A program made the position numbers and the translations under genes. This document shows positions 6,364 through 57,200 of a stretch of DNA of 64,000 bases, in pieces. Below the pieces are notes generated by a model that made no database searches, was not told the origin of the DNA, and worked only from the letters and a program-made list of their open reading frames with translations. The number at the start of each line of letters is the position of its first letter. The stretch's first letter is position 1. The DNA comes from Morchella semilibera (taxonomy: Eukaryota; Ascomycota; Pezizomycetes; Pezizales; Morchellaceae), in NCBI GenBank assembly GCA_009192285.1, contig WBVU01000004.1:1510001-1574000 (forward strand), given 5' to 3'.

Positions 6364-8965
6364 GGCAACGACAATGACAACGACAACAATGTCATCGTCG
6401 TCGGCAGAGACAACGAATTGATCACGACAACAAGATACTTAGTACCAAGTGCACATACAGCTTTCCTCGTTGTTTAACTTCCTATTCACCTATCTACCCC
6501 TCTGCATCTTTCTCTCTTTTATCCCTACCAATTCTCCCCCGACATTATTACTGCACGTACCGGTATGTGCAGTCGAACCCCGACCGGTTAATTCCTTTTT
6601 TCAACTCTCCTCTCAAGCGGAGATATACATTTAAAACTTGGTCTCACTTACATACAGTAGTACCCCCCCCCCCCAATATTTGCAGAGTAACCCCAACTCC
6701 ATAACACACCAACAATATATTCCTTTAACCAGAGCAGAAACAACCATTTCTCTATTCTCACTCATTGCTGTGTCCGTCCAGCCCATCTAGATCTGAGGAT
6801 ACCTACATCAATTATGTTTCCACTTCCCTGTAGACTAGTACATGTAGTAGTACTCTAGAGGAACAACCCCGCGCTACCCAATCAGCGCCCGGGCCGTTTC
6901 GCAACACTTGTAACATCCCCGTAGCTGCGGCGCCAATCGCTCACAAAATCAAGAGATGTAGGTTCCTGCATGCCCGTCAACTTAGACCAATGGTTTTCAA
7001 TTATGATGGGGGCTACCTGCCTGTGACCACCCAGCCGCGCCGCCCCAACGCCCACCGAACGAAATTCTCCTTCCTTGAACCCTGTTGATGCGAGTACTGA
7101 TCCAATTTTCGGCCTGTCTGGGATGTTGTCTCTCCGTTTCTCACTTTGACTCTTTCTCACAAAGTACGAGAACAAGAGATATCTACCTAGAAGGGAGTAA
7201 GTACAACGTGGGGGCAGGAAAGAAAGGAATAAAAGAAAGGAATAAGCGGGCAGGAAGAGCGGAAGAAAGGGATATGACAAGGTAGTAAAGACTACTGGCG
7301 AAGCGGACAAAAACGAAAAATACCTTACATGTATTGTAGGTACGTGTAGGTTAGGTAACGTCATCCTTCTAGAAAACCCTCAAAGAGAATATTTCTAGAA
7401 TCTAGATGGAAAAAGTACATACAAAGTCGGAGTTTGGGCGCTCGAAAGCTTATTTTTACATCTAATTGCACAACAACGTCTTCGACCTCGACCAGCCTAA
7501 ATAACTCATCTCCCTTCTCCCCGTCCACCATGACGTGATTAATAGTTCCTACATGTATGTACCTATCCGGCTGTGACTACCCGTTATCTCGAAGCCCCTA
7601 TACGGGAAATCTTCCAGAACAGCTTCCAAGGCGTCGTGGGCTTTAACTCCCCAGATCCAAGACATATGGCTCCTTATCCCAAACAGACTACTCTAAACAT
7701 CGGCGTAGGTGGCTTCGGGCTGCGCCCCTAAGGGCGGGCTGAACTAGACCTTCTTCTCCGTGCATATTATAAGTTTTTTCCTTTTTCCTGTTTCCTTTTT
7801 TTTTTTGGAGGGATTATTGGAAGGGGAAGGGGGGTCCGGGAACCCTCCCTTCCTTCTAGAATTCGACCAAAACAGGTCTTGAAGTGTTTGCCGATGATTC
7901 TCCCCACGGTGGCACCCGTATGTAATTTTCTGCACACCATAATCAAATCTCCGAGTTCTAGAGTAGGATGTATATTTCGCCTTTACGCATATCAAGTACA
8001 TGTTCGCTAAGGAAACCATTTCGTCCAATCGATATATGTCGTTATAAAGATACATTATAGGAGGTCCTTCCTTTTCAAGCAGGAGTCATCTTTTCCCCAG
8101 CTGGCCAGCCCGAGGCTCTCTAGATCTCCGCACCTAGGACAGGGCCTGTTTCTGTTTTTGCTCTCTGCCAACCCCGTCGTTTTCTAACGATTGTTTGTGA
8201 TCTTCGATGCTAAAATTTTGCAAGTGCAGCTTAAGAGCCTTTACCTAACCAGGCCACTGTACTCGGCGACCCCGAGATCTCAGGATGTTTTGTCATGGCC
8301 TTCCTCGAGCTCTCTCCTTTCCCCTTCCAAAATAAAAACTGATCGAGAAGTAAAAACACACAAACGGATCCACAAAATTTAGGCTGAGGTTATTTCTTAC
8401 ATGCAGTTACTAAACTTTATCCGTCGTTAAATAAGTCCAAAAAGGGAACAAAGCGGCGAGATTTTACCGTCTGGCCGACATAAACTTCTTGTGCATGGTC
8501 GGCCAACCCAACGACATGTAGATACATGTACTACTACTATGTGTAAGATGATCTAAAAGATCACCCAGATGTAGCAAGGACAAGTGCATAAGCCGCAATA
8601 ACATTGCATACATGTACGCGCTCGATCTATTTGATACACTGACGTATTTAAATACACGTAGGCTCGTTTACCTTAAGGGCAATAGTCATCAATTGCAACG
8701 TGTGCTTACTTTAACGTACTGTCAACACTTTTGGGATATCTCGAAAGTAGTAGGCACTCGGTCCGAACATCCGGTTGAGAGCCTCACAATGTACCTACAT
8801 ATGTACATGTAAGTACCTCGATGTCCTTCTACGCGTGCTTTATACCTTCTGCATGTGCTATATATAATTAGGTCCAGCGTTAAAAGGACCAAGGGCCCGA
8901 GGAGGGTTCCGTAATGGTAAGCCTAAATTTAAAAAAAAAAAAATGGCTGTCAAAGAAGATACATA

Positions 8966-9154
8966 CAGCTACACCTCGCTATAAGAGGTTTCGCTATAAG
9001 AGACCCCGTTACAAGAAAAAAATCTTGCTGCAGGAAACAACACACAGGGTACACTCTGCTTTCTATATAAGGAATTTTTGGGGGCACTTTACTACAAGAA
9101 ACGGGGGCTGGCCTAGGCCTCTACCTTAGTGTTTCTTATAGTGAGGTCGGACAG
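8966..9154. mobile_element. Short non-autonomous DNA-transposon-like element (pogo/Tigger-type ends)
   Basis: A 189-bp segment is flanked by TA on both sides (8964-8965 and 9155-9156). Its ends form an imperfect 20-bp terminal inverted repeat: CAGCTACACCTCGCTATAAG on the left and CTGTCCGACCTCACTATAAG as the reverse complement of the right (14 of 20 match). The ACCTCGCTATAAG-type word is repeated just inside the left end (TTTCGCTATAAGAG). Pogo/Tigger-like Tc1-mariner elements are known for TA target duplications and CTCGNTATAA-like termini, so this is the best family guess. It has no coding capacity. It could instead be an unrelated MITE. Confidence 0.55.
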
Positions 9155-10524
9155 TACTACATACATACTCAACATATAAATAAGCTGACCACTTTTCCAT
9201 CCTGGGCATTCTCAGGCCTGACGTTAACGTACGGGCGCTCATGCAAGATGTAGATGGTCTTCGGAAACGTCCATAGATGACTGGAGAACCGGTAACCCGG
9301 ATCTGTTGCTGTCTCAACATTCTAAACAGTCAACTTTTTAGGAAATAATCCTCAAGGCACCTACATTCTAGGTACTCTAGGACCCCCAGGTGTAGGGTTG
9401 ACCAACCAAAAACCCCATTCCTGGTATCCAGTGCGGATGTGCGCCTTCCGCCTCATGTTTCCTATTCTCTGGGTTTTTCCCACTTCTTTTTACTTGAGGA
9501 TATTGTCTTCAAAGTCAATATGGTATCGCCACCGCGTCATTATCCCGCAGTCTACTCCGAGTTGAAACTCTGTTTGATTTCAAGCGGATGGGCGGGCTGG
9601 TTAGATCAGCTAGCGGCTCCCCCCAGAGAACAAAGCGGGGGCGGTTTTTCAGGCCGGTCGGGTCAATTCATGGGAGAAAAGCTAGCTCTTATAAGATGGC
9701 AAAACAAAACCTCTCAAGAAGGCCATATTTAGCTGCAAATTGTTATCGCCGATGGCTCTTGCGCCACTGGGGGGTGTTGCATTGATGTCTAGCCTACACA
9801 GTACGTACCAAAAATAGTGTCCTACATATACATATAATGTATCTCGAGGCATTAGAAATGTCAAATCGGAGAGAGGGCGTAAAACTTAATTATAATCCGT
9901 ACCGCGACAGGGAGAATTAGGTTACGGAAGGGAAGCGGTAATCAGAGACTTGCACGTCACGATATCTGTGTTACCTACCAGTGCCAACTTACAGTGCTAT
10001 CTCCGGTATGAGCACTCTACTAGATGATTATGAAAGAGACTTCTAAATATATATATCAGAAAATTGATCGGGAAACAACCTCCAAAGATACATGCAGGTG
10101 TAGCAAACCAACATGGCAATTTTTTCCAGCACCTACACACTACACTGCTCTAATTGCCGCTCTTATGCCTCCCGCACACACGGTTCAAAGGTCTTACACC
10201 CTGGGTGGCTTGCATAAGGCCCCCGGGGATATGGCTCTATTAGGAGAGCTCCCGGGGGAAGGCAGCTTGTTTTAGGTAGATAATAACTGCTCACCAATTT
10301 TTTTAATTTCTGGTAGCGATCAGTCTAGTAAGTCCGCCTAAAGAGTTTCTTTGAGCGGGCAGACATGTCACTCGAACCCTAACCTCTTAAACAGAAGAAA
10401 GTCGGAGAATCGTGCGCGTGCGCTACTAGTTCCGAGATGCGGGATGGACTTCCTCTTTGACCTGGGTTTCGGTACCCCCGAACTTTCGGTTCTGCCTGGT
10501 TTAGTATGTGAAAAAAAAAAAAAA

Positions 10525-10562
10525 AAGTATGGTCTCAACCCGAACATCCCCAGACCATACTT
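10525..10562. repeat. Inverted repeat (11-bp stem)
   Basis: AAGTATGGTCT at 10525-10535 is matched by AGACCATACTT at 10552-10562, a perfect 11-bp stem with a 16-nt loop. A-rich sequence precedes it and T-rich sequence follows, which extends the possible pairing. A second palindromic pair (CTTATAAGTGA / TCACTTATAAG) lies immediately downstream near 10602-10650. Possibly a decayed foldback element. Confidence 0.55.
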
Positions 10563-13500
10563 TATTTTTTCAGTGCATGAGTACTTCTACATCTCTCATA
10601 ACTTATAAGTGAGGTGACATATATCTTCTCCTATGGATCACTTATAAGAGCTTTGACCTCACACACCGCCCCGGCTTCTATTCTACTTCGTTATCGTCGG
10701 GTATAGTTTGTATGCCACATATCTACGCAAGGCCGATTGACTGTCTCAGGCCAAGAAGTACTAGGGGTCGAAAGGAGTACTTACTACTATGAAGCAAAAC
10801 TTTGGCGTAGCTGGCTGTTTGGGTTAGAAAGGAACGAACAAAACGACTATCAATATTGGCAATGTCAGAGATCTCCCCGAAAAGCCCGCCTCAGGTTTAT
10901 GTACCGCCCTTGTGTAACAGCTTTTGCACCAGTCGAGATAAGCAAGCAGCTACATGTATGTACATGTATGTCTCTGCGTCGGCCATATGCGAATCCGACA
11001 TATGTCCAGAGATCTTGAGCTATCCTGATCTGGCATGTCTGGTGCGGGGAAAGGCATTTAAAAACGATCTTGGAGTCTTTTGTCACATCAACTCATGACC
11101 AGGCATGGTATGTGACATCTGTTTGAAATGTTCTTGCATTTTCCATTTTTCTAAAAAGCCTTCCATCACTCATGTGCCGTTACCGTACATACATAGAACA
11201 AGCAGATCCCAATACACTTATCTACACACATACATGTATTTACAGACATCTAATGAATGGGGCTTGCCGCTGCAACATGCACAGTCGACACCATGGCCCG
11301 TTCGTTTGAAACCACCATCATGGCAGGTTCCGGACAAGTGCTTATAATCAAATCTCGTACCACCTCTAACCCGACTTCGTATTTATGATCAGTGATCAGG
11401 GCGCTGCACTCTGTAGGCCCTTGCCTGTTTGAGTGGGAATTTGGGTACCGTTAAGTCTCGAAATAAGTGGCGGCAAGACATAAAGCAACCAATCATACGG
11501 CTTAGATTTGACCCTTTAAGCCCGGGCTGTTCTTTTGAGAATTGACGGTAGTTATAGACATTGCGCCTCATCGCGAAATGGATCATCACTGCAGCGTCCC
11601 CACAATGACTGTCTAGTCTAATACCTAGAGTAAATGAGCCCTTTAAGGCTTACACTAATTCGGGGTTAAGCAATCCCAAGACCCCCATATCCATGATTGA
11701 TATTAATCATAGTGGTGGTACCGACTTTCATGTAGAGTACGTACATGTTCGCTCGCATAGACTTACATTAAGTATGTATGTGTGGTGTAACTGATGTGTT
11801 TCCTCGGCAGCTACAGATTCGGAGCCAACTTTCATCTTATGTATCCCGGGTCAGGCTTTTGTCTCAATGGGCAGAGTGCATACGTACCCATAACAAAAGG
11901 AAAGGCGATAGAAAAAGTCTGGAAGACGACCAAAGCGCCCAATAACAAATCTCAACAATCGTTTAAGTTCGATGAGCCCCATAATCATACATGTCAATAT
12001 CTCGACACATACTGATTCAGCTTTATCGAAGAATCGGATCTTGCTCAGTAGGTTCCTCCCCCCGATAAATCTCCGGTGCAATAAATAATGCCTCATTGAG
12101 ACAGCGTAGCCAAGAGAATTTTATTTGCGGTACGTGGGCCATTAAGCAGTCTACAGGTATGTACATATAGGCGGCCAAGGAAGAACCTTCTTGGATTGAT
12201 TGCGAGATCGATCGATTTAAGTCTTAACATCATCTCCTAATATTTTATCAGTTGGAATCTGTAGTATCATCCCCTGTGGCTTTTTCCTCGGGAAATAAGT
12301 GAAATACGTGTATACATATCATAGACACTAGACTAATATGCTAGTAGCCGCCTAAATATGATCACAAAAAGCGTTGAGAGCTTATCTGTAACCGCTCAGA
12401 TATTCAGTGGCTAGGGCTATTCTTGGTTGCGTAACCTTCATGGTAGAATCATAAGTTATCACTCGGGCGATATGTTACACCCTGCACGCGGTAATATTTA
12501 CAATTGGGGTAATTATTATGCATGAATGGATAATATCTACCCTATCTTACTAGTCCAAGAGATTCTTATGTATCAAGTATCGGATATATATTGTTCACGG
12601 TCTAGTCGGTCAAAAAGCTAGGAAATCTAATTGTCTTATGATCGAAGCTAGTCTATCTTTGCCATTGATTTAATGACTACATGTAGGCAAGCCGTGAGGC
12701 GGCTTATTCTCTTCTCTGTTTACATGTACCTACCGGCCGGGGCTCTCAGCCCGCTGCGCGGTCTTTGACCCCTCCTAACACGCAAAGTACATCACTACAT
12801 GTACGTGTATCTAAAGTACACCCACTATACCATGTACTTACATTACCACATATATATATAACATCTCCATATACAACATAACACCGTCTTTCAGGTGAAA
12901 CAAGGGTTTCCCAACCAGCCAATCAAACCCTTAAAGAGTACATGCATACTGCAAATTATAATTATATACTTATTAGATGTAATCATGCGGACTTCTCACT
13001 ACATGGAGTATACATGTACATGTAGTTATACCGGCCGGCCCATTCGCCCCCCCCACCCCCAACCGGGAGCATCCTCCACTCTGATCACGCCATGTCCTCA
13101 GGCCTAGATGTAGATTGATTAATATTGTAGGTAACTAAATGTTATATCCTCTCTCCCTATATATGATTATGACAATTGTCTCCGGGTCCACAACATAGGT
13201 AGTATACACCTTGTTCTGATATCGGACATATACTGACTTATATAAATGAGCTAGGTACATGTATGTATAAGTCAATTGGAACCGCTGGCAATCGAGAGAT
13301 CGTGGGTACGGGGGGGGGGGGGGGGGTTGCGAGGCCCAGATGTGATCCCTATATAATATATACATGTATATATATACATGTAGTTAAGTAACTGAAACGA
13401 TATACATCATTTAATATTTATTACATACATCTATTACATGTACTGATTTACATAATAATATACATAATGTATCCGCGACACTGACGTTCAAGGCAGGGTA

Positions 13501-16436: not shown

Positions 16437-19400
16437 TATGAACTTTGAACTCCTTGGGGGTTTGACGTGGTCGGGTGTTTGGGGGAAAGGACTTCAAAGA
16501 TGGCCCGTGCTGATATAAGGTTTATTCGAGAACGTCTCTATCGAGAAATGGACAACTATGTCAAAGACTTTTCCCTTTCCCGTCGATACCAAAAACTATG
16601 AGTATCCGTGAGTAGACTGGGAATCAACCAGAACTGGATGTAAAGATAAGTTGGTGGTGTTTAAATGACCCTAAGGAGAATGGTACTGTTGTAGGCGACG
16701 ACGGTGGGAGCTTCTCCTGCAGTGCCTGCTGACCTCAAAGGAGCTTTGTTGCTGCGGTTTTTGAGGGCAATCTATTTTGCACCCAGCTTGCAATCAGGCA
16801 CTAAATCCAGTGCTAACTATCCGAGAAAAACACTGAGAAAATTTGCAATGGAATCGAGCAGGGTGGTATCGAGATATCGGCCGGGAGCGCGGGTACTAAC
16901 GACGAGCAACCAGAAACGCAAGTGATGTAGATATTTAAAAGATGAAAGGGCGCCGCAAAGAGATAAGGGGAGGGGGGGGGGGGTGGCGGGAGCAAGAACG
17001 TAGACCAAATGGTTCGTCTAGTCAAAGCCGATCAAAATCGGATTTGGGGGGGGAGGAGAGATTTGGAATATAAAGACCGGAACGAAACGAAAGAAAGACC
17101 TGACGGCGGGGAGGCGGCGAACAGAGGGAGGGGTTGCAGGTAAGAGGAGGAAAAGGGGGAAGGGGAGAAATAGAACGATGGGTCAAGTTCTGGACACCAT
17201 CAGCAAAATGTAGCCAACAGATCGAATGCATGGCTAGTACCAGAGAGGTCACATAGACCACCCTGGCTGGCTGAACAAAACACTTTCTTTTATTGCTCTT
17301 TTTTGCTTTACTACTGGTTGGCTCTCACACAAATCTCTGTTCTTGGACCATATCAATGTAACTCAATCATGCCAATCCACTCTACAAGTTGGAGTTTTTC
17401 CCGTTGCTCAACCATTCCAGTAGCTGATCTCAGCTTTGCCGAATCCCGAAATACATTCCTGCATACAGAAAAAACTGATCACGGAAACAAATGCCATGGT
17501 GTGGCGCCTATTCCACTGTGGCTCCTTTGTCCAATGATATATACATGAAGTACTTACTTTATTAGATATCGACGGAAATGTCCCCCATCATCTCGTAACA
17601 AATACACGGGTATAGTTTTCTGCAACGGGATTCTTGTATTGTTGAGCCACTGAAATCCGTATGCATTAAATGAGTATACATGTACATGGGAATAGCCACA
17701 CTCTGTGCAGAACTGCATTGCTACAGCTGACTACGTCTCACGCACCTCAGTACGTTGGATATATATAGTATACGTACTCTTGGGGGTTATATTCCTCAGG
17801 AGAAGTTCCATAGAGTTAGGTGCCTTTGTGGGATAATTACATGTGCGAGCTTGCGGCTACAATAGACCGTTAAAGTAACAGACAGGAGGTGTGCAGGGCT
17901 CTTGTCGCTTGGCTGAATTCCCTGGAGAGACTTGACTTAGGTACAGCAGTTACAAATATAATGATCAAATAATCCGATAGTAGAGCGCTCATTATTACGC
18001 GGCTTCTTTATAGCGGATATAAATATCTCTACCCTTAAGGCCTTCGTTCATCTCTCAATAATCGCGACTCATGGTGATCCGAACACTGAGCATGATTGAG
18101 TGAGTGTTCTAGGATTAATGATTTCAGTCACGTGGCTCTCGGATCTCCAATGGTTCACTGAGCCGCAGGACTTTCCTGCACTTCCCCAGGGCTTTGGTAT
18201 CATCAGTTAGGAACGGCTTCTCAAGAGAACTCCTAAACTGGATAAGTAAAAGCCGCATAGTTCCACTTGCTGTATAGGTGCCGGTGATTATGGAGGGACA
18301 GCATGTCAGAGCGGCCTTGCTATTTTTAGAATTCAGTACAACGCCGCTACTTCGTTCGTCTAGTGAGGCTATACATGTATATAATAAGCCCAAGATCAAC
18401 TTGAGACCTAGTATGTTGATCATAATATGGTTGGGGTTTTGCTTAGCTGATATGATGTTTGGTCACGCCGGGATATCAAGATATTATTCACGTAACTCTT
18501 TTGGGGGTTTTAGTTTTGAGGATGCTGATCTAGGGAGACGGAACTAGAGAAGCCCATCAGTCATGTGTGTACTCAGGTTTCAGGCATACAACTACATGTA
18601 AGTAAGTGTACTTGTACGTGGATATCTGGGCGGCTCCGGTCGGTGCCGCCTAACGAAATATAAATTTTTCTGGGCTAATAACATAAAACCCCCTGTCATG
18701 GATAATAACTTGTGGTGTTGGTATGCATACAAGTATCCGGATCCTCATGTATGGATCTGGAAGGACTGTGTATGCAGGACGCTGTACTTATGCATTTGGG
18801 TACATGTAGTCTTCTGGCACCATTTTATCAGTGCATCTCCTTAAACTGCCGTTTATGCTGCCGTTCATGGTTCGGTTCCAGGACCCATATAGCTACACGT
18901 GTTATAAACGTAAAAGTTTATTAAACATTCACATAAAGTTTGGGTGGTAGGGAACTACCGTTTCGTAATTGTTGGCGTATCGTTATCCGATAGAATGCGG
19001 CTCTCCCTGCCAGTTGAAAATATACATACATGTACATACATGTATGTATGCACCGTCAGTGGATAAAAGAGTACTGTGGTATTGAAGGTGCGTGTAGTCC
19101 AGCGTACTTCGACTGCACACTACAGGTTAGATGCTAGTCTTGGCGTTTAATTGACACAATGTCCCTAAACCGCGTCAATTGTGGGGAATTTTCTGAGTAA
19201 ATAGCTGTTCTCTTCTTTACTACAAATATATGCAGGAGCTTTTATGAGACTAATACGTACACATATTCAATCTGTGGTGGGGGAAGGGCTATTGCTATCG
19301 GAGGTGTGGACGTGGTCATGGTCGAGTGATTGCACATGAAGTGAGTCAGTTGGATTCTGGTTGCGATGGGCATCTTAGGTCCGCCCCACCTTGACCCCGC

Positions 19401-25939: not shown

Positions 25940-25962
25940 ACTTTTCGAGTCGTTTGCTAGCA

Positions 25963-29935: not shown

Positions 29936-29967
<32 letters not shown>

Positions 29968-30040: not shown

Positions 30041-30132
30041 GCTGAGTAGTAGTAGTGGGTACGTTAGCTACATGTAGCTTACAGTTGGGTCTCTCTACTG
30101 CTACCACCATTGTTCAGATGATCTAGCAATTG

Positions 30133-30164
30133 GCGAGCAGGCGAGCAGACGAGCAGACGAGCAG
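30133..30164. repeat. 8-bp tandem repeat (GCGAGCAG / ACGAGCAG)
   Basis: Four consecutive 8-bp units, the first two GCGAGCAG and the last two ACGAGCAG. They lie in intergenic DNA upstream of the ureidoglycolate lyase gene. Confidence 0.8.
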
Positions 30165-42000: not shown

Positions 42001-45000
42001 GCAAATGCAAATGGCTCCAGAATGCATCTATTCAGTACAAAACGAGTGATTCCTGGTGATTGGTGGGATGGATGGATTTCAATTTGGTCCTAACAAAATT
42101 CAGTAGCTACATATACATGTAAGTCTGTATGTGCAAAAACAAACCCTTTCCTCTCAACCAAAACATCCAAGAATAGAGGTTAGAGGCCATAGAACTGTTC
42201 TCCTCTTAATTCTCTATTAACCTAAGGCCTCTAAATAAGAATACTTTGTGTTGTGGTCGGGAGATAGATTTGGTTTTTACCAACCCCGTTGTCGTGCAGC
42301 TATGCAGTCGACGGTATGCATAACTGGCCTCCGAGATGCATATATACAGTATGTACTCATAGATTCGGCACCATCCTCTTGGACATTCCATCCCGGCTAG
42401 CTGAGAAAGGAGACTGCCTTAGAGTATTTTCGGTGCTGCCCGTTCGATAACATGAAATACATGTATGTTCACATCTGCCGAGAACGGGCCAAGAAAACCC
42501 TTACTAATCACATCTCACTAATGTGGCTTGCAGAGAGAGATGGGGGATCTTGGTAACGTCAAGATCTTAAGGGTGTGAATTCCTTTTTCTAGCTCGGCCA
42601 CGTGCTTGTCGTATTCCAGTAGACCAAAACTTAATAGCCACAAATATCTTGTCACGGGCGACATCTCCTATATACCCAAAATTAACAATAAATTAATAGT
42701 TTAGTCAACCGACCTTGCAATTAATTGGTTTTAATGCAGCTTAACGGTCCTTAGATAGGTGTGGGGGCTGTTCCCGCTCAGTTGGGGCACTCATTGCTTC
42801 TGTATTGAATTATTTGTGTGTATTGAGCTCTTTTTATGTGTAGAGACTCTAATATGCGGATCAAGCTTTACTCACTCACCTTTAGAGCCTACGAGTACAT
42901 GTACCTGCATACAGGGATGTACTATACATTTCGGAAACTTATTCTCGCCGCAAGTACATATATGTAAGTACGAGCTCTCCAAGACTTAATTCATAATGGG
43001 TCGTACACGGATCTATACGTCTTAGTTTCTCCCCTTTCGATTGGCAACGATGAGGCTTGAATGGGTTTAACAGTCGGTGCCTTCTGTCCGCGAGTCTATT
43101 GTTTGTGCAGTGTAATAGACAGTGACAGATTAGCTCTAGAGCTTATAGGTGCTCGTAGTTGCCTAGCTATGAATAATAATCCGAAAAATGATTCCCAACC
43201 GTAAAAAAAAAGAAAAAGGAAAAGGAAAGAACCACTGCTCACCACAAAACGTGACGCAGGTACATGTAGTCTAGAAGACGAAAAAGGGTTCGTTACCTTT
43301 ATTGTTCATAGCTACATGTACATGTACTCATCTGTGCAAGGGTCGGATACGTATATATATACAGATTATTATTTTATATCAAACAGTAAGGAGCCCATGC
43401 AAGAAGTCACTTTATAATTACTCTCACCTTAATTCCCAGTTGTAACTCAAGGACGAATACGCCACCCCACGGACCCACATTGGATTAGTCTCCCTGGGCT
43501 ACACTTTGATTCAAATATATGTACTTAATGGATACTCAGAGCTCCTGCGAAACTTTGAAAGTGATTTGTAACTTAGGAGCTGGATTTTGTGCCTGGGTAG
43601 GAACACCTTCCCGTAGGGACCTGCTAGGAGCAATGTACGGTCGGCATTGGAGCAGCGACGAAACTGATAGAACGACGGGCAGGGGGGTACTCTAGGAGGG
43701 TCAAATAGCGGCGCTCAGGCTGATATCAAGTAGCATGATTGCTGAACTACGCTGTTTCGTTGTTTACGGTACGTACATCGATATATCGTTGCTCTCGAGG
43801 CAACTGGAGTACCTCCTGGCCAATCGCATTATTTCTCTTCGGATTTTAAGGGTTTAGAGATCTGAACCTACCCCCTTAATTCAGATTAAAAACCTGGAAG
43901 GCACTTTTCTAAGTTTTCTTACTCCAAATTCCACCGAGATCTCAAATAAACTCCTACGGGAATTTATTCATTCCCGATGAATATTAACACGAGACTTTCC
44001 ACCGTTATAACTGAGACCGGTTTATATTAAATAAATAGACACCTGAAGACTAGCCCCTTTTAACTTATGCTATATATGTATCCTTAAGATCCCTAGCGAC
44101 CGAAAAAAAAAAAAAAAAAAACTAAAAACTAAAAACTAAAACTAAAATAGGTTAATGGTTGTGATATTCTTGTATATAGATCAGCAGTGTATACAGGCAG
44201 GAAGCTAAAGTTTCGGGGAGCTTTACTTTTAGGAGAAACTGGCGTGAATTGTGATTGGAACCGCGGGTATATGTATGTATATACAATTGTGAGCATAAAA
44301 ATAAGTCGGGGAAAACGGAGCACGTTTCAAATAAGCACTATACCTAGAGGTTCTATGCAGAAAATACTAGATATCGAAGAGTAGGAATATGAGTCTGTGA
44401 TATGTCCTTTGAATTCGGGTTGGGGGTAATACTGATCATGAAAAAACTAGAACGAGATTGTTATAATCATGTGACCTGAATTGGATAATAGACGAATACA
44501 TGTAGTCAGCTTACCTGTCTATATCGACACCCCCAAACTGAATATCTGTTCAGGCTCGATATTATCTGAAAAGCCCAATACCTAGTAGAGGGATTGTGGC
44601 CTAGTAACTAAAACGAGTGATCGTGTGTGCATGGATAACGTTTTTTTTTTGTTTACATCATTAATTGTATCCAGCCCTTAGGGCGCTATGACAAGCATGG
44701 ATAACGTTAGTTGGGAGTTACCAACAACCATAAACTCCAAATTAACCAGCTTAAGCCCGTCTGATATGACCTTATTCATCTGAGTGCGACGGGTCTTGTG
44801 GCTCTATCTGTTTAACCGAAATCTAGATATCAAAAGTTAAGTTAACTTAAGTAATTGCTGTATCAATCAACCTCGTCAGGGCCTTGGATGTTGCGTTAGG
44901 TATTTATGCATTCGACCGATATCAAACAACTGTTGAACCCTCCAGAGCTTAAGCTCGGTGTGTATATGTTGAACGCTGTAAGGCCTGAGCTGTGAGGTAG

Positions 45001-47600
45001 CTATAGCTTATCGAGAGGTCTTTCTGAAGGCCATGAAGCTGCATGCATGTAACTATATGCGCTTGCCACGTCATGTATCAATCGGCTGCGGATGCATTGG
45101 TAAGCTCGTTCCCAGATCAGAGTCCTACGCACGTTGCATGAAAAGCAATCTGCCCGTTGGGGGGGTGGACACGAGACTACACGTACATTTTAGCATACAC
45201 GATAGCATGGAATGACCCGATGAGTATATACGTATATGTACTTGCTTTTGGGATCATACGAACGAACGGTAGGCGAGAACTATATACTCACCTTGCTTCA
45301 CCAACATTCCACACACTCATGTTCAAACAGTATTCTCGCTCGACCATACATGTATACATACATGTATGCCGATTAGTCTAGACACCCTAGAAATCACATT
45401 ATCACTCCAGAGTTTTTCACGGTCAAGTAGTGTTATAATCTAAGTGATTGCTTCCTTAATTGCCCTGTCGTAAAGGGTGGGCTTGGGCTACATCATAATC
45501 TGGTTTGTACATGTACATGTATTCAGGTGCTGGCGGTTTAAAACTCGAGCAACACGTAATAAGAGTTTGAGGGTAGAGTTAGCTCTAAACTAACTATAGC
45601 CGGTGGGCAACAAGCCAAAAAAAGATAACGTTAAATATTGTTACTGCCCGCACTGTATACTCTTACAGGTAGCAATAGTATATATTAAGATGTTATACCA
45701 AATATCTGTCAGAGAAGACTAAAAACACCCCAAACGTACCCCCGGACCCAAATAAACGTGTTCGAATGTAGTGCTCGGCATATTTAGCCAGGTACCTATG
45801 GCTTGTCGACCGGCCTCTAAACAGGTGTAAACCGCCGAGCTCTACCGACTTCGTACCACCATAAGTTTCAGATATTCTCCATGCTACAGTTAATTGATTT
45901 CAAATGGTAACTGGATGACGTGAGTCTACTTTCCTTAAGAGGCATGTGTTATGCAAGAGTTATTTTTGGTTGGGAAGAACGAGTCATAGTTCATGATTCA
46001 GGCGGGTTTATTTCCCTTTTTTTTTTTTTTTTTTTACTTTCTAAAAATAAGAAACTTAATCCTAACAAAGTAGAAATATGATTGATATACTTTTAAACTT
46101 TTACGGAAAGCCGGCACCGTATATATCCTCCACTGCATATTCAATATGTCCGGATCGGCCTCAGCGGGAAAGTACCTACAGTAGATACGTACGTATATAC
46201 ACGTCAATTGATAACAGTACAAACCCGAAAGCATAAATCTTAGATGACAGATATGCAATCTAAAAGTCATAGTCTACTATACATGGACTACGGCCCCTCA
46301 GTGACTTCTTAAAGATAAATATGTAGGCAATACGATCCGCAGGGATTTGGGGGGGGGGCTTTATCAAGTTATGAAATATTTCCGTGCTCAAGTCCTAAGT
46401 AATTTATTATATATATTGATATGAATCCATAACAGCAATATACCAAGGGTCAGCCGAGCCTAAAACCGGCCCATTCTCTGGTGGACATTGTTTGGAGCGA
46501 GTCGAGTCGATGATAAATGGCGGTGCTGTGGCCTTATCAGATACACTTAAGGTTGCGTAAGAGAGCAGGAACTTAGGGAATAAGTGATGAACATGCCAAA
46601 GCATTTTGCAACAAATAGTAAGTCCTACCAACGACACACAGAGTCAATAATGAGTACAAGAAACAGGTTTACGGGGTGGGGCGCGTCGAAAACGAAGCTG
46701 GGTAGACAAGTAGTACCACAGACACGAAAGTTTGTTTGTTAAAGCCAGCCAGTTACTTGGATATCAAAACATATGGTTACTTTCTTTAAACCTCATGGTG
46801 AGCCCCGATGCGCTGTACAGTGGGCCAATGCAATCTCCGAGGACACAGGAATTTCCGCGATTGAGAGTGATATGTATTCAACCTCTCCTCTCCATGCTAG
46901 TCCCCAGAATATGTCGGGGGTTTTTCTACAATGCAATCTTTCAACAGTACAACCATTGAGATTGATTCGATTTCTATATAGATGATTAACAAGCGGATAC
47001 CGACTTTGGCCCAGATAAGTCCGCCACCCACTCGACAAAAAGTCACAAAAGTATGTTCTAATCAATTGGGTGCTGATTTTAGATCACAAGCAATCCCGTG
47101 GGTCACAGCGTTGCTGTTGATAGAAGGATGAGGGCATATAGCCACGTTTGGTAGGAGCCCGAATAGTTACTAATTATTATCAATAGTATACTTGATAAAA
47201 ACTATAAAGAAAAAACAAAAAAGAGAAAAAAGAAAGAAAGAAAAAACGCCGAAAGCCTAGATTCGACTATTTGAGTGAACTCTCCGGAGCAACAATCGAT
47301 CAGTCCGAGGGGATTTTATTATTTTATCCGTACATATTCTCGCTAGCTAATTATTACCACATATATATAGCTTTGAGGGGAAGAAGGGGGTGGGGTTCGG
47401 TGATGTCTCGAATACGGAAGTCACGACCTCTTCATATCAAGTGGCTATCCGTTACGGATCGTCATTTCTTTTAAACCACAGGGAAAAAAAAATCAAATAA
47501 AGGTCCGGGGCTAAAATCGAAAGTTCGCACTATTGTCAAAAGGTATATATGATCTTCCCAGAAAAAATAAATTATGCAGTTGCATCAAAAAAATAAAAAT
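39083..47600. other. Gene-free AT-rich block upstream of the OGT-like gene
   Basis: The first 800 bases include pyrimidine-rich sequence (39400-39600) and are the probable OGT promoter. From 40,000 on, no open frame has family character. The DNA is AT-rich, with TACATGTA palindromes (for example near 40059, 40449, 42113, 42896, 43314, 45348, 45509), poly-T near 46018, poly-A near 44104, and repeated short words. It looks like decayed repeat DNA. Confidence 0.55.
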
Positions 47601-48222: not shown

Positions 48223-49548
48223 TATGAAGCACTCATTCACTCGTTCACAATGTCAACAACACGACACGGCAGTTGAGCCAATTCTCCCACTGTGTCTCTC
48301 TAGCTCTGTGTCTCTGTGTCCCTCTGTCGCCCAAGACCCCAAAAAGAAAACATTGATCTAACTACAAGCTAGTAGCTTATGTAGCTACATAACTAGCGAG
48401 GAGGGGGGGGGGGGGGAAACATACCTGGAAAGGGACCCAAAGCAAAAAAAAAAAAAAAAAAATGCACAAAACCGCATGATTACGTCGTGGAATCGGAGAA
48501 TTTTACAAGTAGAGTTGATATTCTCCGGCTTGGTAGCAGCGAGAGAGGGAGAGGCGTTTCAATTTCACCAATTAGTAGGTGCTAAACTATGATATTACAC
48601 TTTCAACGGCATTAAATTGTCAGGGAAAGGTGTATCACATATGTATGTTAGATACATGGGAACTGGGTGTGAGTCGATATGCCATATGCCCAGTTACATA
48701 TGTACCTACCTTACATATATGTACCTGGTAATTCGGTTCTCATTACATGTAGGTTCTTATCTCCATATGCCACTGGCCGAGTGTCTAAATACCGATTCGA
48801 GCCTACAGCTAAATCCTGGTTCCGTCTGTTGTCCGCACAGTTTCCGGTTTTACCTAGGGGAGCTTCAGCTTTGGGGGGAGGAGGGGAATTTCATGTACGT
48901 AGTACCAATACATTTATTCCAAAGCCGGCTCAGTCATTACCAGGCAAGTGAGTAAATGAGTGAGTTGGGTCAGTGATGTGAGTGACACACTATGATTCCG
49001 CCCGCTCACCCGCCCTCCTGTAACCGCAGACAACAAGCAGTCAGGGAGGTATGTATGTATCCGGATCTTCTCCATTCCAAGATTACAGTGTCTTGATAAG
49101 CGGAACGTTGTCGTCGTCCTCTGCCGTACTTGCCTTTATTTCGGCACCGAGGCTAATAGGCATTCTGGCCGAGCTGCTGTCGTGTGCTTAGTTGTGTGGG
49201 GTGTGTGCGTCGTGGGTAAGTTATTGTACCGGCGAGCGGCGATTGTGGTTGTGGTTGTGGTGATTTCAAGAAGGACCACGGATAAGTATAATTCTGCGCG
49301 CGTAGGGGAATGTCGGTGAGGATTCGAACCTATCCCGTAAATACTACTAGCTGAGCCAGTAGCAATTGAACGTATTAAACTCAACTACATGAGGAATGCC
49401 ACTAAGACCCAATTCAAGTTAAGAGGAAGGAAATACAAACCTGTATCTTAACAGAGACCTAAATGTCCCAAAGTCACAAATAACGGCCGGGGAATATTAT
49501 TTCTCTTCGCCTAGCTCTACATAGCTCGGAAGGAAAGGGCCCATACTC

Positions 49549-49638
49549 TACTTGCCAAATTTTCAAGTTTAGGACGGTTGCCACCCAACTTTTAAATTTT
49601 GGTTATATCTCGTCCTAAACTTAAAAATTTGGCAAGTA
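49549..49638. mobile_element. Foldback element 1 (90 bp, 28-bp arms)
   Basis: The left arm at 49549-49576 (begins TACTTGCCAAATTTT, ends GTTTAGGACG) and the right arm at 49611-49638 are reverse complements at 27 of 28 positions, with a 34-nt spacer. The transcript of either strand would form one long hairpin. No open frame is present. It is best described as a small palindromic MITE or foldback element of unknown family. Confidence 0.7.
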
Positions 49639-49677
49639 GACATCCTTGGCCCCAATTCATGTGCCTACATGTAGTTA

Positions 49678-49800
49678 CTAGTACTTTCCTGACGTTTGGA
49701 AAATGGACCACTATTGCATACCATACTAAATTTTGGACTTGGCGCGTATTTGTATGGCATGCAATAGCGGTCATTTTTCCAAACGTCAGGAAAGTACTAG
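49678..49800. mobile_element. Foldback element 2 (123 bp, 48-bp arms)
   Basis: The left arm (49678-49725) begins CTAGTACTTTCCTGACGTTT, and the right arm (49753-49800) is its reverse complement with about four mismatches. The spacer is 27 nt. TA-containing bases flank it on both sides (TTA before, TAG after). It lies only 39 bp from foldback element 1 but shares no sequence with it. A non-coding, MITE-like hairpin; superfamily unknown. Confidence 0.7.
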
Positions 49801-51583
49801 TAGAGTTGTCTGTGGTGGTGGTGGGAGGAGAGGTGGGGTGGTGATAGTAGTGGTGGTAGGAGCCAGTCACAATGGCGACCAAATCACAACGTCGTCCCAC
49901 TCCGCTCACTCGCGTAATTGGACATGTTTTCAAAACCCTATAAACCTGTTCCACCTTCACATATAGTAGAATATCATATCGCTTTTGTATTTTTTTTACT
50001 TCAATTTTTTTTTTTTTACGTTTAAGAAGAACCATATCGCATTTTCGGTACTCGGTATAATCCGAAAAACTTAATTCAGTGGATAGCCGCAGCCGCAGCC
50101 GCACTTACCTCTGTTTGCCTCATGTATGTAGGTACATCTAAGGAATCTAACCCTAATTGCAACTACCTGTAACATCCCCCCACCACTCTCTACTACCGAT
50201 ACTTACCATCTCTCCCCCCCCCCTCCAATCTATCCGCTTTCGGACCGAGCCTCTCCACAGACACACTCCGGCAATCACATCCGTCCGCGGGGGGTTACTG
50301 GAACCTGCGTTGAATGATGTCGATGTCGACGAGTCAAGATGCGGGAAAAAAAAATTCATTTTAACCGCTACGGCAGCAGGAGAAACATCGATAGCGACGG
50401 TAGATATATGAGCGCTCCTCTACGTCCTACAGACCTTGTCTGTAACTAGCACTCTTATGGTATAGTATGGTATTTCCCTTTCCCTCTCTCCCTCTTTATC
50501 AAGTAGACGTAGACGGCACTTGGATCCATAGAGAGACAGTACTTTGAGAACCGTGAACTACCTCCCTGGCTGTGTGATGTGATGTGATGCGATGTTCATC
50601 TCGCTCAACCTTACCTGCACTCCAGGTACATGCTAGTTCGCAGTACTCTACCTGCTGCTCCCCCCACAGTAATCAATTAATGTCCCGTTTAACCTATCAG
50701 TGCTAGCCAAAGTCACGGGTATTATGTAAGTACTCCATATGCACACCGCCATCAATACCTCTCTCTACGTCCCCAGAGTCCAGGTGCCTAGCTTTCAGCG
50801 CGAACGCGCCGGTGATCAGTCCGTGACCGCCGACGATTATCAGTGCACATCACGGTTCGAGGATCTAGGAGGAGGTTTATGCCCTTCTACTCCACTAGAC
50901 AGGATTTAGCTTTGATCAATTGAGCTCGGTTTGTTGTTGTTGTCGCAGTTGTTGTGTTATAACTTGCAATTGAACCCCCTGCCGCCCGCGCGCTTTCGTT
51001 CCCAACCCCCGTCACGTTAGGAGAGCCATCGATGTCGGACTCTAGCCTACGAGACTAGTTAGCCACGCGAAATGCACGCGCGCGCGGTCATGATCCGAAA
51101 TCCGAAGGTTTAGATCATTTTCCTATGTTTTACTTTTTTTTTTTTTTTTTTTTCCTTTCTCTTTTGGCGGTTTGCGAGAATTAAAACTTGCCCTGTTTGT
51201 CTCTCTTTTGCTGTCTGCCTGTCTGCCTGTCTGCCAACCCCCCCCCCCCCACCCCGCCTCCGACGTCCCTAGTGCGGGTAACGTATGTGCATATGTTGCA
51301 TATCTACAGGTATTAATTCCAAATAGGGGGATCTGCGTTGATTCGGGGAAGGGGGAGTGTGATGTTTCCCAGGGTGGTTTTAGTTAACTTGGTAGTTGGA
51401 AGCAGATTCTTACACTGGGTGGGAGTGTACTTCCTTGGTACATACATGTAGCTAGTCCTCTTGAGATCATGGTACATACTATTCCGGATCAGGACCTCGG
51501 TATAATTAATATACCCAGGGAAGTTCTTCTACTCGTTTGGATCACCCTCCGAGGAGCCGTGCTATCATTGGCCAAGGGATCAA

Positions 51584-51616
51584 TCATCATCAATCATCAT
51601 CATCATCAACATCATC
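51584..51616. repeat. ATC/CAT trinucleotide microsatellite
   Basis: Imperfect CAT units with single-base interruptions, in gene-free DNA. Confidence 0.7.
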
Positions 51617-52236
51617 GTGCTTTGCCTGGGTAGGGCCCGAGAGGAGGGGCGAAGGTGTGGGAAGGGGATAATCTACCGTACTCTACCGTAGATACCGCCA
51701 TTCGATCTGTAACTTGGGTTTGCTAAGGTCCCGGGTACATATAGATCGTGATAAGTCCTGAGCTGAGATCCCGGTGGAGGGAAAGAGCCGCTAGACCGGG
51801 CTAGACTAAGATCAGCTATGATGATCAACAATTAAGTACATGTAGTTATGATGTAGGTGAATAGACTAATGGCTGCTTAGCAAATACATATAACAAATCG
51901 AGGGGCTACAGATCTCGAAATTTCCCAAGGAGATTTAATTAACCCCCATACTCTAGTAAGTATAGTAAGTAGTATTCAGGGCATAAACAATCACCCCCCC
52001 CCGGTGCCTCAATTGCCCCAAATTCTGGGGAAATACTTTACGGTTGGCTGGTCCGGTGAAGGGGAATGAATGAATATTGGCGCCGGTGCCTCTAGGCCTA
52101 TGATATTAAAGAAAAGAAGGAGAAATAAAAAAAGATACCATGGAAAAATAATTTGCTGTGGGTTGTAAGAGATAAAAATATTAATTTAGTTATAATCTTG
52201 ACCGTAATATCAATCGGCGACTCCGAAAAGGAGTGA

Positions 52237-52259
52237 GTCCGTCCGTCCGTCCGTCCGTT
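52237..52259. repeat. TCCG tetranucleotide microsatellite
   Basis: About five and a half uninterrupted GTCC units in gene-free DNA. Confidence 0.85.
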
Positions 52260-54249
52260 CTTTTTCGTTGTCAAGATGCTGGAATTTATTCCAATCCATC
52301 CAAATCCTTCCAACCACCTCCACCATCCCAGTCCCCAGTCTCCCGTTCGCGTCCCCATCCCAAGAATCGAAGTGTTTTTGCGTAGTACATGTATGTACCA
52401 CGATTAGCGAGAGGCTGGGTTACCTTCCGAAAGCAATAAATAATCTATCGAAACGGTTGTTGCGACCCTTTGAGTTGTTGTGTGTGTGCGTGTGTGTCCG
52501 AACACATTTCGCTATTTCTAACTTTCTCGGGTTCTGCCGTCCCAAGACCCAAATATAAAGCCAAACCAAAAACCGAAAGGGGAAAAAAAAGAACAAAAAC
52601 GTGGGAAATATTACCACGTGTGGGGGGATTGAATAAGGGGATCAGGATGGGGATGATGGTGGAATTGGGTTAATTATTAATGGGGATTTGTGCAGCACAG
52701 AAGCTGGCTGGCTGGCACTGGGAAATGGCCAAAAAAGAATCCTCTTGGGAAAAAAAAAATAAAAAAAAATGTGGGAAATAGAATTCGTATGGTCGTCTGT
52801 GCTCAACACACTGAGACAGGTTCAGAAAAGAGTTCCAAGCGAACGAACGAACGCTCCCTTTGCTGTGTGACGTGGGAGTCAAAGTTACGAATGCATGCTA
52901 CAATTTGTACCTACATACTCGACAAAGATCGAGTGAGAGAGAGAGAACGGAGAATGGCCGTCCTGCCTAGAAAACTGTTTGCGGCCTCGGGAAAGGTCCA
53001 GACTACTCAAAAATACCTTGGTTTACTGCTAGAATGCCTACTGGGCTAGGGTCCCGGGGGGGGGGGTGGGTTACTTGCTCTAGGTAGGGATCATTTGGGG
53101 ATGATTTTCGTTGCAACCCCTACCTACATCATACACATCCTACCCCGAGTCAAAGGCAGACAGACTGACAAGCAGTAGGACCTGGCTAGACGTGACCCAA
53201 TTAATTTATTTATCCAGCAGAGAGGCTCGATGGAGCAAGCGAGTGAGCGGCTGTAGGCTGAAAGGTTGGATACTCGTAAAGAGTACGGTATGTGCGTGTA
53301 TGTACATGTATGTACTAGTATGTAGGGTGGGAGATCTGTGAAACAGTCAGGTTTCCAAGCACATCCGGACCCTGGACCATGAAAAACCGTTGAAGTCGGC
53401 GACTTCACTACAGTTTAGGTTCTCTCGCGCACTCCGTGGAATTGGGGGCTGTGCCCGCATATAGAGCCTCAAATCTAAAACATATCCAATCACAGCTCAG
53501 AAACAGACGAGGTTCTGCTGGGGTCGGCGTCCCCTGTGTAACAGTGAATGGAAAAGGCGGGATACCGACACCAACTGAACTAACCTCTTGTCCCTGAGGC
53601 TCTCTTTCACCCACCCCTCCTCATCCTCACCCTGTCCACTCGTTTCGGTTTCCAAACCCACCACTTTTGTTCATTGCAGGGCAGAGCTAGAAACTAGGGA
53701 GGAAACTGGGCTCGAGCTAATACGAAAAGGGGCTTTTGGCTTTTCGTTCCCTCAGCCGTATGGGGGAAAGATGCGGAAGCCCTAACTACCTAACCACACA
53801 CATCTCTCAAGTGACATTTTTAGAGACAACGGGCCCGCCGGATGTCAAAAGAAGTGTGCGTGCACCCAAAGCTAGGCTCGCCAAATTAGCCAATAGCGAC
53901 CCATGGTCAATTAAGCTAATGCCGATCCCTCCCATCCCCCTTCCACGAGCCCCCCCCCCCCCCAAACTTCTTTCCCGCCCACAATGAGTTTAGGACTTAT
54001 TGATAGCGAGCGTCCTTCAAAGTAGAGTGGTAGAGGGGGGTGGGGGGTGGGGGTGGGAGAGAGTGTGTCTCTATGTCCTAGCTTCCTCTGCGTGACCTAG
54101 TGGACGGTAGTTACAAAACCCATCATAACTATACCAAAAGTGGGGAAAACTTTGCCCCATCGGAAGGAAAAAAAAAAAAAGACGTTGGAGATATGCATCT
54201 CGGCCGAGCCCTAGTTTTGTGCGATCATAGAGGACCCTTTACGGCCCGC

Positions 54250-54276
<27 letters not shown>
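54250..54276. repeat. CT dinucleotide microsatellite
   Basis: About thirteen CT units without interruption. Confidence 0.9.
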
Positions 54277-54281
<5 letters not shown>

Positions 54282-57200
54282 CTTATTATTTGTAGATCTA
54301 GATACTGATCATGTTGCTGGCACAGATTGCGCCTTGTCGTCCAGTTGTCAGACCCAGTGCGCAGAGTTTTGATAGTACCTACGTACATACATACATGTAC
54401 ATATTACATAACATGGATGGTCACCCCCGTACCTACCTACCACCATACTTGAGGTACATTCATTACTTCTCAGTGCTTGTCAGTCACAGAAATTCATTCC
54501 TGGATATGGATATACAGGCAGATATGAACTTAAAAAAAGAACCAGGGGCCGCCCATAAGATATTCGTGGCGGGTATCTGGGGGTTTGTCCTCAGGGCTTC
54601 TGAATGGATAGATTGATACCTTCCACTTCATTCTCCTTCCAGTGGAACAAGGGGGTGGCTTTATCTGGACTATTGCGTGTGCTGAGAGTCACGATGCTCT
54701 GGCGATTGGGTTGATGCACGGTTTATAGTAGTGTTTCAGTTGACTGGCACGAATGGGGAGGGTGGTTTGGTAAACTGAGACATTACTCCTTCCCCCAGTC
54801 TTTCTCAGCGAACCGCAGTTACACGTCCATGCAGCGAACGTTGCCCATCAACTTGGAACATGATTGACATATACTCTCGAGCTGAACTGGTCTCACATTA
54901 ACGCAAAAGGCGTAGCCAAGATTGTTATTTTTTGCGATCCAATTTACTTCCTGATAAAAGAAAGAAGAAAAGAAAAGAGAGAAAAAAAAAAAAACGTGGA
55001 CTCCAATGCTTTTATTTGAAATTTTTTTTTCTCTGCTCGTGGATCCATCCGATACCCTTGTCAACAGTCGGTCTTTCTCACCACCATCATGATTACGGAC
55101 AATTTCCGAACCTTTCCCTAGGCAAGTGCGGCGGAGCGTCGACATATTTTGTTAGGAACGTCTTCTCTATCAAACAGAAGTACGTGATCGCTGTTCTTTT
55201 AGCTCTCTACCCTTTCTGCAAGTGAACTGTTCCCAAAGTAGTGGACGGCGACCATTCAACGCTTGGCATGCCAGGTCAGGAAGCGCAGAGATCCTCCCCT
55301 TTCGTCGATGGGGTTCCAAGGCTCAACGGTTGGTTGCACCACCGAGATTATGATGCATACGGCTCAGGCATGACTTGCGCTGCTGCCCCAAAGCAGGAGC
55401 CGTCCATACCATCCATACCATACCAGACCATCCATACTGTTCGTCTTCTGCAGAGTGCAGCAGCAGCAGCAGCAGTAGGAAAAGTGATGGGTCTGCTCTT
55501 CCATCACTCTACCTGCCTGCCCACCCAAGGCAGGCCTACCAAACCACAAGTCCCGGAGGATCAGGAATTTTAGAGTATGGGAATGGAAAGCCGGATCACG
55601 TAGGCTGCACCCGACAGAGAGGGTGGCCCACAGTTTTGCGGCCGGGTATCGTGGTTCGCATCTACTCTAGCTTTGACCGTTTGCGGAGAAGAGTAGCGAG
55701 TGTTCGCTTCTTTGACCACTCGACTTGCATGGCGCTTATTGTGACCTCCTCTGACCTAGCCGCAGACAGCTTTTGACAACCTCACCTCTGTCGATAGGAA
55801 CCCTTCACACACACACCCCGTCAGAGACAGACAGACACCCACCCCACACACTCGCCCACATCCCCCCTTCCCTCCTCTTCCCCATCTCCCATCCCGATCC
55901 CCATCTTCCTAGGAGGTAACATTGTACGAAATCTTCTCAACGGTAAGCTACATGTGAACACTCGAGTACCGAGTACCACATTACATACATCATATCAAAT
56001 CTCAATAAAATTCTCGATGGATGGGATGGAATTCTATTTTCATCATTCATCCAACCCCCAAACGTATTATTGCTGAACCAGTTTGCCAGCACTGTTACCG
56101 TCCGTCCACTCTTTCCAGTCTCTGTCTGTCTTTCCCATATACAGAAGTAATGCAGAGAAGTAATGTATGTTCTACTGCTTACAGGCTGCTGCCTCCCACA
56201 CCAAAAATAATGTCCGCTACCTGCCTACAGGAGTGCACCAACCAGCTTCTCGCACACACCCTTGGCCGCTGAGCCGCCCTGCTGGGTTGCTACTGGGGTG
56301 TCCATCCTTTATCTTGGGTTAACTGCGGCGAGATCGAGCTGTATCATTTCCGTTCTCTACGATTCCTGCGCGCGTTCCGTTAGGAGGTTTCCCATCAGTT
56401 AGTCCTGTCCGTGCTGCAACATGCTGCTCGCTTTCCGGGGCTAACCTCCCAGCTGCCGTCGCCTTACAGCGCCACTGGTATCTGTTGCAAATCGCGGAGA
56501 GACATCTGAGACCTGTGTTGGGTGGACCTCAACGACGTCGGCGATTTGGAGCCCCTATGAATATCATTTCCATGATTGGCGGGGTTCCCAGAAAAAACCC
56601 ACCGTACGGAGAGACACAATCGACGTCTGCCCGACCCTAGCACAGAGGAGGGTCGTGCAGCGCGCCTTGGGTGCCCCGTCTTTCTCCTCTGGTTTAACCT
56701 GTAAATCTTTTTCTTGAGTGGGGTGCAACAACAACGCAATCTCTGCACTGTAGGTCAGTCGCCAAACCTCCAAGGGCAGCCTGGTTTCCTTTTAGCCCAG
56801 AGCAATGTTTTTACTCCAACCCTTGTCTTGATTGACCAGATCAGGAGTTGATACCCAACAGATTGGAGTCGGACAATCAACAGGCAGCGCATTGACGGTA
56901 AGGGGCTTGACTAGATGTACTCTAGCTCGCAGTCATCGGGGGTGACGGATCCGTCATCGGCAGTTGACATCTCGACACTCTGACCACTTGCCAAAGGTAA
57001 GAAAACGGTTTGCAAATTTAGAGGGGAAAAAAGCAACACTCGTTCCCAAAAGAAAAGGGTCTAAAGCAAGAAAAAAAACCATAGGGTACTCTAGAGACAT
57101 ACCAGGCAGCGGGTGACTTGTCGCTCAACGGGGTCAAGCGAGGGCCAGAAAGAAAGCCTTTTAATCGTTTTCTGTCATTCATCTCTGCAGGCGACACTAA

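Follow-up and report, generated by a model that had tools for sequence, protein, structure and literature searches.

Why is one eight-letter palindrome, TACATGTA, so abundant in a 64-kb stretch of the genome of the morel Morchella semilibera (contig WBVU01000004.1, positions 1,510,001 to 1,574,000; this whole stretch is called the window below)? We find that its enrichment is a real and strong genome-wide feature of this fungal genome, and we infer, tentatively, that the copies are mainly old excision footprints left by transposons of the Tc1/mariner superfamily. No report of such abundance in Morchella or another fungus came up in our searches of open-licence papers in PubMed Central (PMC): the word is present in PMC8081344 only within a primer, and the portion of PMC11481914 examined, which deals with palindromic Isw2 motifs, holds no sequence of this kind.

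The original prediction put the number of copies in the window at about 50, with about one expected, and this estimate proved accurate: there are exactly 50, as against a mean of 0.82 and a maximum of 4 in 100 dinucleotide-preserving shuffles. Its coordinates were correct to within one or two bases, and the overlapping doublets that it described are indeed present, four in number, starting at 13011, 30411, 43313 and 45508. TACATGTA is the most extreme eight-letter palindrome in the window, followed by TATATATA (20 copies), ATATATAT (17) and ATGTACAT (14). Its copies, to which no strand is assigned, lie as follows; MITE-402 is a miniature inverted-repeat transposable element (MITE) described further below.

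6839..13442, no strand: 18 copies of TACATGTA in a block without predicted coding DNA, starting at 6839, 7326, 7550, 8523, 8609, 8804, 10951, 10961, 11231, 12678, 12721, 12796, 13011 and 13017 (these two an overlapping doublet), 13256, 13361, 13375 and 13435
17677..19044, no strand: six copies, starting at 17677, 18372, 18593, 18801, 19027 and 19037, flanked by two divergent predicted genes
24978..24985, no strand: one copy, adjoining the left end of MITE-402
25388..25395, no strand: one copy, adjoining MITE-402 on the right; without the insertion the site would be a doublet
30069..30424, no strand: four copies, starting at 30069, 30322, 30411 and 30417, flanked by two divergent predicted genes
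40059..45521, no strand: 13 copies, starting at 40059, 40450, 42114, 42458, 42896, 43261, 43313, 43319, 44497, 45347, 45359, 45508 and 45514
48744..54399, no strand: seven copies, starting at 48744, 49666, 51443, 51837, 52386, 53303 and 54392

The genome of the window comprises 56,756,124 bases (56.76 Mb) in 23 contigs and contains 22,206 copies, or 0.39 per kb; the window, at 0.78 per kb, has twice this mean density. Composition-matched palindromes reach 3,723 (ATGTACAT), 1,527 (TGTATACA) and 1,627 (ACATATGT) copies genome-wide. The assembly seems to include duplicate scaffolds, which raises all such counts slightly: C12:400001-410000 matches C13 without a difference across 9,984 bases, so that the two look like duplicates, and parallel match coordinates suggest that C9/C10 and C21/C22 are duplicates too. 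Expected numbers were obtained from a 264 kb sample made up of the window, 100 kb around it and ten 10-kb stretches elsewhere in the genome; this sample, which served both for training a hidden Markov model (HMM) and for counting, is dominated by the window's neighbourhood. It contains 110 copies, as against 3.1, 4.6, 6.2 and 16.1 predicted by Markov models of orders 1, 2, 3 and 4. From order 4 upwards the predictions climb as the word's own parts enter the model, and those of orders 5 and 6 are high (50 and 97) because these models already hold most of the word. Two checks proposed in the original prediction, a Markov model of tetranucleotides (about 6 expected, 110 seen) and a count elsewhere in the genome, thus left the enrichment standing, and it is not confined to the window.

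The copies are dispersed. Loci with L numbers are stretches taken from elsewhere in the same genome, and in fifteen of them, each 10 kb long (L015-L029, 150 kb), all 43 copies fell within nine stretches while six of the 15 had none. Four further stretches, L001-L004, were chosen because they bear doublets; they were used for flanks and repeats and excluded from densities. The sites show mild clustering (variance 1.5, mean 0.84 per kb); in the set used for this, eleven pairs are less than 39 bases apart, and their spacings are only 6, 10, 12 or 14 bases. Genome-wide there are 501 doublets, with at least two triplets among the doublet places listed. Apart from two in 13356-13382, the sites lie off tandem arrays.

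Where do the copies lie relative to genes? Our gene map comes from a home-made coding HMM without introns or untranslated regions, which makes distances from genes rough. In the window the claim of an exclusively non-coding distribution is borne out: all 50 sites lie between predicted genes, outside predicted coding DNA. Over the 264 kb sample, one of the 110 sites falls in predicted coding DNA (82.6 kb) and codon shuffling expects 0.5; coding DNA is at chance level for TACATGTA, not depleted. The 300 bp that precede predicted coding starts (11.7 kb in all) hold no site, and by 750-1500 bp upstream the density has climbed to 1.6 per kb. Past the 3' ends of predicted genes, 3 sites fall in the 21.7 kb within 500 bp and 20 in the 11.5 kb at 1-2 kb. 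When 400 bp beside each gene are dropped, divergent intergenic DNA holds 46 sites in 37.6 kb, tandem 35 in 33.3 kb and convergent 10 in 24.6 kb, an approximately threefold difference between divergent and convergent density (p 0.0004); 13 of the 110 sites, which are outside genes yet not between two predicted genes, were left unclassed. Large intergenic blocks vary widely, from 18 sites in 10.0 kb and 20 in 19.3 kb to 5 in 10.0 kb and 1 in 8.4 kb.

Beyond the word itself, there is little that the copies share. The comparison of flanks suggested in the original prediction revealed almost no common sequence: base preference is nearly nil more than about 8 bp from the word, which argues against their being fragments of a single repeat family. 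What does recur is a TA two bases away from the word, found in 91 of the 256 arms of isolated sites, and again four bases further in 41; TA arms in general have TA at that offset in 11% of cases. The word also stands alone among its relatives. These comparisons, like the counts of unmasked words, the mismatch halo and the arms at MITE-402 junctions below, treated L025-L029 wholly as non-coding. In the grid of 16 TA-XYyx-TA palindromes only the CA/TG form stands out, with 137 copies as against 3.5-5.3 expected; the runner-up, TATATATA, has 69 as against 4.4-11.2, and the remaining ones have 1-12. Among the 16 NN-CATG-NN palindromes, likewise, only the form with outer TA stands out, and the others number 0-14.

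We favour footprints on two grounds: what the word is, and how rich the genome is in Tc1/mariner relics. TACATGTA consists of TA, two end bases from each side and TA (TA-CA-TG-TA), and the excision footprint of Tc1 in C. elegans, as quoted in PMC3520976, is TA-CA-TG-TA (taCATGta); searches aimed at that footprint turned up no other paper that gives it. Under this explanation, which widens the original prediction's idea of transposon footprints to scars of Tc1/mariner elements and which we prefer with some reserve, an element would duplicate its TA target upon insertion. Excision of a CA...TG-ended element with a two-base stagger would then, after repair, leave TA-CA-TG-TA, a gain of 6 bp relative to the TA that was there before. 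If CA-ended families jumped again and again through a long period, the scar would become scattered over distal intergenic DNA that tolerates small insertions, and coding and gene-proximal DNA would be spared. The scars would afterwards decay through point mutation, and present-day TA-targeting MITEs would prefer to land at their TA edge.

Relics of the superfamily are plentiful. The DDE_3 domain (PF13358) has 69 matches in the genome, 57 of them above the cut-off, with duplicate scaffolds counted. One element, here called A, has the ends CAGCGG...CCGCTG and TA duplications in two copies, and was found at two loci and a probable duplicate scaffold. A search for TA-flanked inverted-repeat pairs returned 60 rows as against 8 in a mirror-repeat control, many of the 60 being shifted frames of one element, 16 coming from L018 and about ten being built on the word itself. 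TA two bases out was found at 5 of the 12 junction arms of six CA-ended elements (p 0.007) and at 3 of the 22 arms of 11 other elements; this test is small and post hoc, the six having been picked by eye after the pattern was seen and the 11 others also by eye, and the match in TA-NN-TA context between sites and CA-ended elements is suggestive only. In a tandem duplication of about 90 bp in L003, one copy reads CTAACC where the other has CTACATGTACATACC, which points to an insertion or deletion at TA and not to substitutions.

Decay of old scars should leave a halo of near-copies, and steady neutral birth and decay predicts about 1.1 one-mismatch words per exact copy. One-mismatch words exceed expectation by 88-113, about two thirds of them transitions, where the excess of exact copies is about 132. 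The test is weak because the control palindrome ATGTACAT has a similar halo (an excess of 92-118 with only 28 exact copies) and because other TAC/GTA words confound it.

A number of observations weigh against an excision origin. The halo just described is near the neutral steady-state value but below it, and the L003 indel measures 9 bp instead of the canonical 6 and could be either a gain or a loss. We found no pair of filled and empty sites that shows scar formation; C12 and C13, compared as alleles, yielded no polymorphism, being identical throughout the bases compared. The living elements examined insert at G-TA-C (13 of 13 MITE-402 copies, 2 of 2 copies of element A), whereas no such preference for G and C is seen at the sites (28% have C at base +1, and GTACATGTAC accounts for 9 of 137), so that their target context is unlike that of the living GTAC-targeting families. 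The scars to be expected of CC-ended families show no clear enrichment: TACCGGTA, which we rejected on this ground, occurs 2 times as against 2.9 expected, and TACCAGTA 13 times as against 7.4. A scar of the three-base Sleeping Beauty type (PMC3432063), TACAGTA, was likewise dismissed, with 32 seen and 31.4 expected. CA-ended elements are few today, which means that a vanished and very active source would be required; family C (L006), tried as a CA-ended multicopy source, fell away when its 39 other strong matches turned out to be only partial, most of them to an internal stretch of about 160 bp.

Further points bear on the same question. The threefold excess of divergent over convergent sites would also suit a promoter element. 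Other TAC/GTA words remain five- to sevenfold enriched after the sites are masked, from which it follows that some wider bias exists. We also searched for paralogues of window 39500-54500 and 6500-13600, L015 and L002, with 39-40 scored candidates each: the one diverged paralogue read (78% identical), which covers the site at 12796, retains TACATGTA, and this proves little, and no scored match of L015 covers a site. PMC3520976 disfavours a footprint for the Phytophthora word on the ground that it is conserved between species. The excess of the same word in Phytophthora, an unrelated genus, would be better explained by a shared transposon mechanism than by a shared regulator.

Could the word instead be bound by a protein, as the original prediction also suggested? 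It is possible, if somewhat doubtful, that TACATGTA is the site of an abundant, putative sequence-specific homodimer with a role upstream of genes, either in general regulation or in chromatin architecture, and that selection keeps it. Independent work on Phytophthora promoters found the 8-mer abundant there: it lies upstream of 12,070 genes and is correlated with expression (PMC3520976), under the name M93 it was counted 4150 times in promoters of P. infestans (PMC3597505), and a motif resembling it is reported for genes that respond to loss of a MADS-box factor in P. sojae (PMC6165875). The 22,206 morel sites would amount to about two per gene (11,565 genes, PMC7014384). Their threefold density between divergent genes, their absence from the 300 bp preceding predicted starts together with their density at 750-1500 bp, the single exact word with little beyond it and a halo smaller than neutral decay predicts are all consistent with binding. 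However, the gap near genes is two-sided, the density beyond predicted 3' ends also being low at first and peaking at 1-2 kb, so the pattern is not specific to starts, and the very existence of a halo would be unlikely under strong selection, confounded though the measure is.

The search for a binder of the Irx type also counts against a bound site. The sole match to Homeobox_KN in the genome has the recognition helix WFINARRR, with Ile in place of the Ala that Irx proteins carry at that position, and the Irx-like homeodomain was rejected as a candidate. The suggestion of an Irx homeodomain had been made for the Phytophthora word (PMC3520976). In its fullest form, that TACATGTA is a genome-wide functional element present about twice per gene, set back from genes and densest between divergent ones, bound by a putative abundant homodimer that would organise intergenic chromatin, with the Phytophthora word an independent or very old counterpart, the proposal seems to us rather unlikely.

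A different possibility is that no transposon is involved and that a mutational or DNA-structure bias (slippage, templated end joining or local strand switching) makes TAC/GTA words in non-transcribed DNA, with TACATGTA as the commonest product. Related words are indeed in excess in a 231 kb noncoding sample: TACATA (352 seen, 172 expected), TACCTA (205, 114) and GTACGTAC (14, 2.2). With the sites and 12 flanking bases masked, TACATACA (38, 6.4), GTACCTAC (24, 3.5) and TACCTACA (23, 4.6) are still raised, and TA steps four bases apart are enriched 1.64-fold. Yet TACATGTA is far above other words (101 as against 3.6 in the same distal DNA), and a bias would need to be orientation-specific, given that TACA followed by TGTA occurs 138 times and TGTA followed by TACA 11 times, or 22,206 and 1,527 times genome-wide. 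Growth as a microsatellite, tried as a simpler source, fails on the same 138 and 11, and on the lack of any (TACA)4 and of any triplet of the doublet unit in 314 kb, where no TACATACATACATACA was seen either. The original prediction's suggestion of a mutational or repair bias therefore survives in part: simple slippage is contradicted, and the masked TAC/GTA words support something broader. As an account of TACATGTA itself we consider such a bias distinctly unlikely. TA-NN-TA spacing is raised 1.65-fold overall in the same noncoding DNA, over most NN, and this and the raised GTACGTAC are possibly scars of other TA- or GTAC-targeting elements.

Two MITEs in the window adjoin or nearly adjoin a site.

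24986..25387, no strand: MITE-402, a 402-bp non-autonomous element with inverted ends CCGGGTGT.../...ACACCCGAG and TA flanks in a G-TA-C target
49676..49802, no strand: MITE-127, a near-perfect hairpin that begins two bases after the TACATGTA at 49666

MITE-402 has 46 partial or full matches genome-wide, its own copy and duplicate scaffolds counted. The original prediction raised the possibility that 24978-25395 belongs to a small transposon with the word in its ends and that the copies are its footprints, which as stated is not supported: across 13 copies the only conserved ends are GTA/CC...AG/TAC (the slash marks the junction), with a target duplication of TA (or GTAC). TACATGTA is absent from the element itself and adjoins 4 of the 13 left and 2 of the 13 right junctions, leaving most without it. 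These 6 of 26 junctions exceed the share found elsewhere at GTAC (77 of 1786 arms, p 0.0008), an over-representation that indicates target choice by the MITE. MITE-402 thus prefers TACATGTA sites as an insertion target, and the word is not part of the element. The probable autonomous partner of MITE-402 is a transposon with a DDE_3 domain at L045/L046, whose right ends close in the same way, in CACACCCGG/TAC.

MITE-127, with arms of about 54 bp and a folding energy z of -12.9, was scored at 39 other places (of 319 candidates; 84-100% identity, duplicate scaffolds counted), and in 5 of these the match continues through the site at 49666. Another MITE, in L002, has TACATGTA within 20 bases on either side, and its matches extend through the adjoining site on the left in 5 and on the right in 7 of 39 places. 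Judged from match ends, most copies of both stop short of the word. It is therefore highly improbable that the copies of TACATGTA derive, as ends or as remnants, from a small number of abundant short transposon families (perhaps just one), be it the 24978-25395 element or others: the word does stand on both sides of MITE-402 in the window and near the L002 MITE on either side, and some matches of MITE-127 and the L002 MITE run through it, but the conserved ends of MITE-402 exclude it, most junctions lack it, most copies of the other two end before it, bases more than 8 bp away show almost no preference and the link with MITE-402 is one of target choice.

Several repeats lie around the sites. 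Two older MITE families, at L002:1652-1928 and L015:6490-6793, each with dozens of places at about 70-96% identity, lie among TACATGTA sites, and a dispersed 90-bp repeat at 11462-11550 of the window (37 scored places, 78-90% identity, duplicate scaffolds counted) has ends CCGTTAAG... flanked by TA. Inverted repeats at L025:9394-9583 and L028:531-643 begin with GGCCTGTTCGG and GGGCCCGTTTGG, which we take to recall the ends of PIF/Harbinger (Tourist-like) elements. Among the window's genes, open frames read by eye at 14489-16493 and 20103-23310 resemble a SAM-domain RNA-binding protein (Vts1-like) and valyl-tRNA synthetase, and those at 27040-28974, 33792-37042 and 58361-59263 a TRP-type channel, an O-GlcNAc-transferase-like TPR protein and a Myb protein. 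An Rfam search at gathering thresholds gave no match, and a tRNA search found none.

If the copies are scars, a eukaryotic genome would retain a readable tally of transposon excisions running to many thousands, and searches for motifs in such genomes would present scars as regulatory elements, so that the motif published for Phytophthora would call for renewed scrutiny. If instead the copies are bound, a filamentous fungus would carry, about twice per gene, an architectural or regulatory element with a putative binder.

How does the morel word compare with known systems? The Irx case differs in that the morel genome has one Homeobox_KN match, with Ile for Ala; the likeness to the Irx (Iroquois) homeodomain site lies in the preferred word. 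That word is the same TACATGTA (cited in PMC3520976). The cyanobacterial HIP1 (GCGATCGC; PMC4390886) is also one exact eight-letter palindrome at extreme genome-wide frequency, but it is tied there to orphan methyltransferases, and TACATGTA in the morel is at chance level in coding DNA. With Phytophthora motif-1, or M93, the morel shares the 8-mer itself and its high abundance in non-coding DNA upstream of genes. Unlike in that oomycete, where the word is interpreted as a transcription-factor site, morel sites skip the nearest 300 bp upstream and fill long intergenic blocks. The C. elegans Tc1 footprint has the identical eight bases, a TA duplication around CA and TG, and the morel genome, like the Tc1 system, holds transposase domains of the superfamily and TA-flanked CA...TG elements. 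The differences are that the footprint is called rare in C. elegans (PMC3520976), as against 22,206 copies here whose proposed excision origin is read from sequence, and that the target context departs from that of the living elements examined. It is tempting to speculate that the Phytophthora promoter motifs TACATGTA (M93) and TACCGGTA (M94) may themselves be Tc1/mariner scars that were misread as regulatory.

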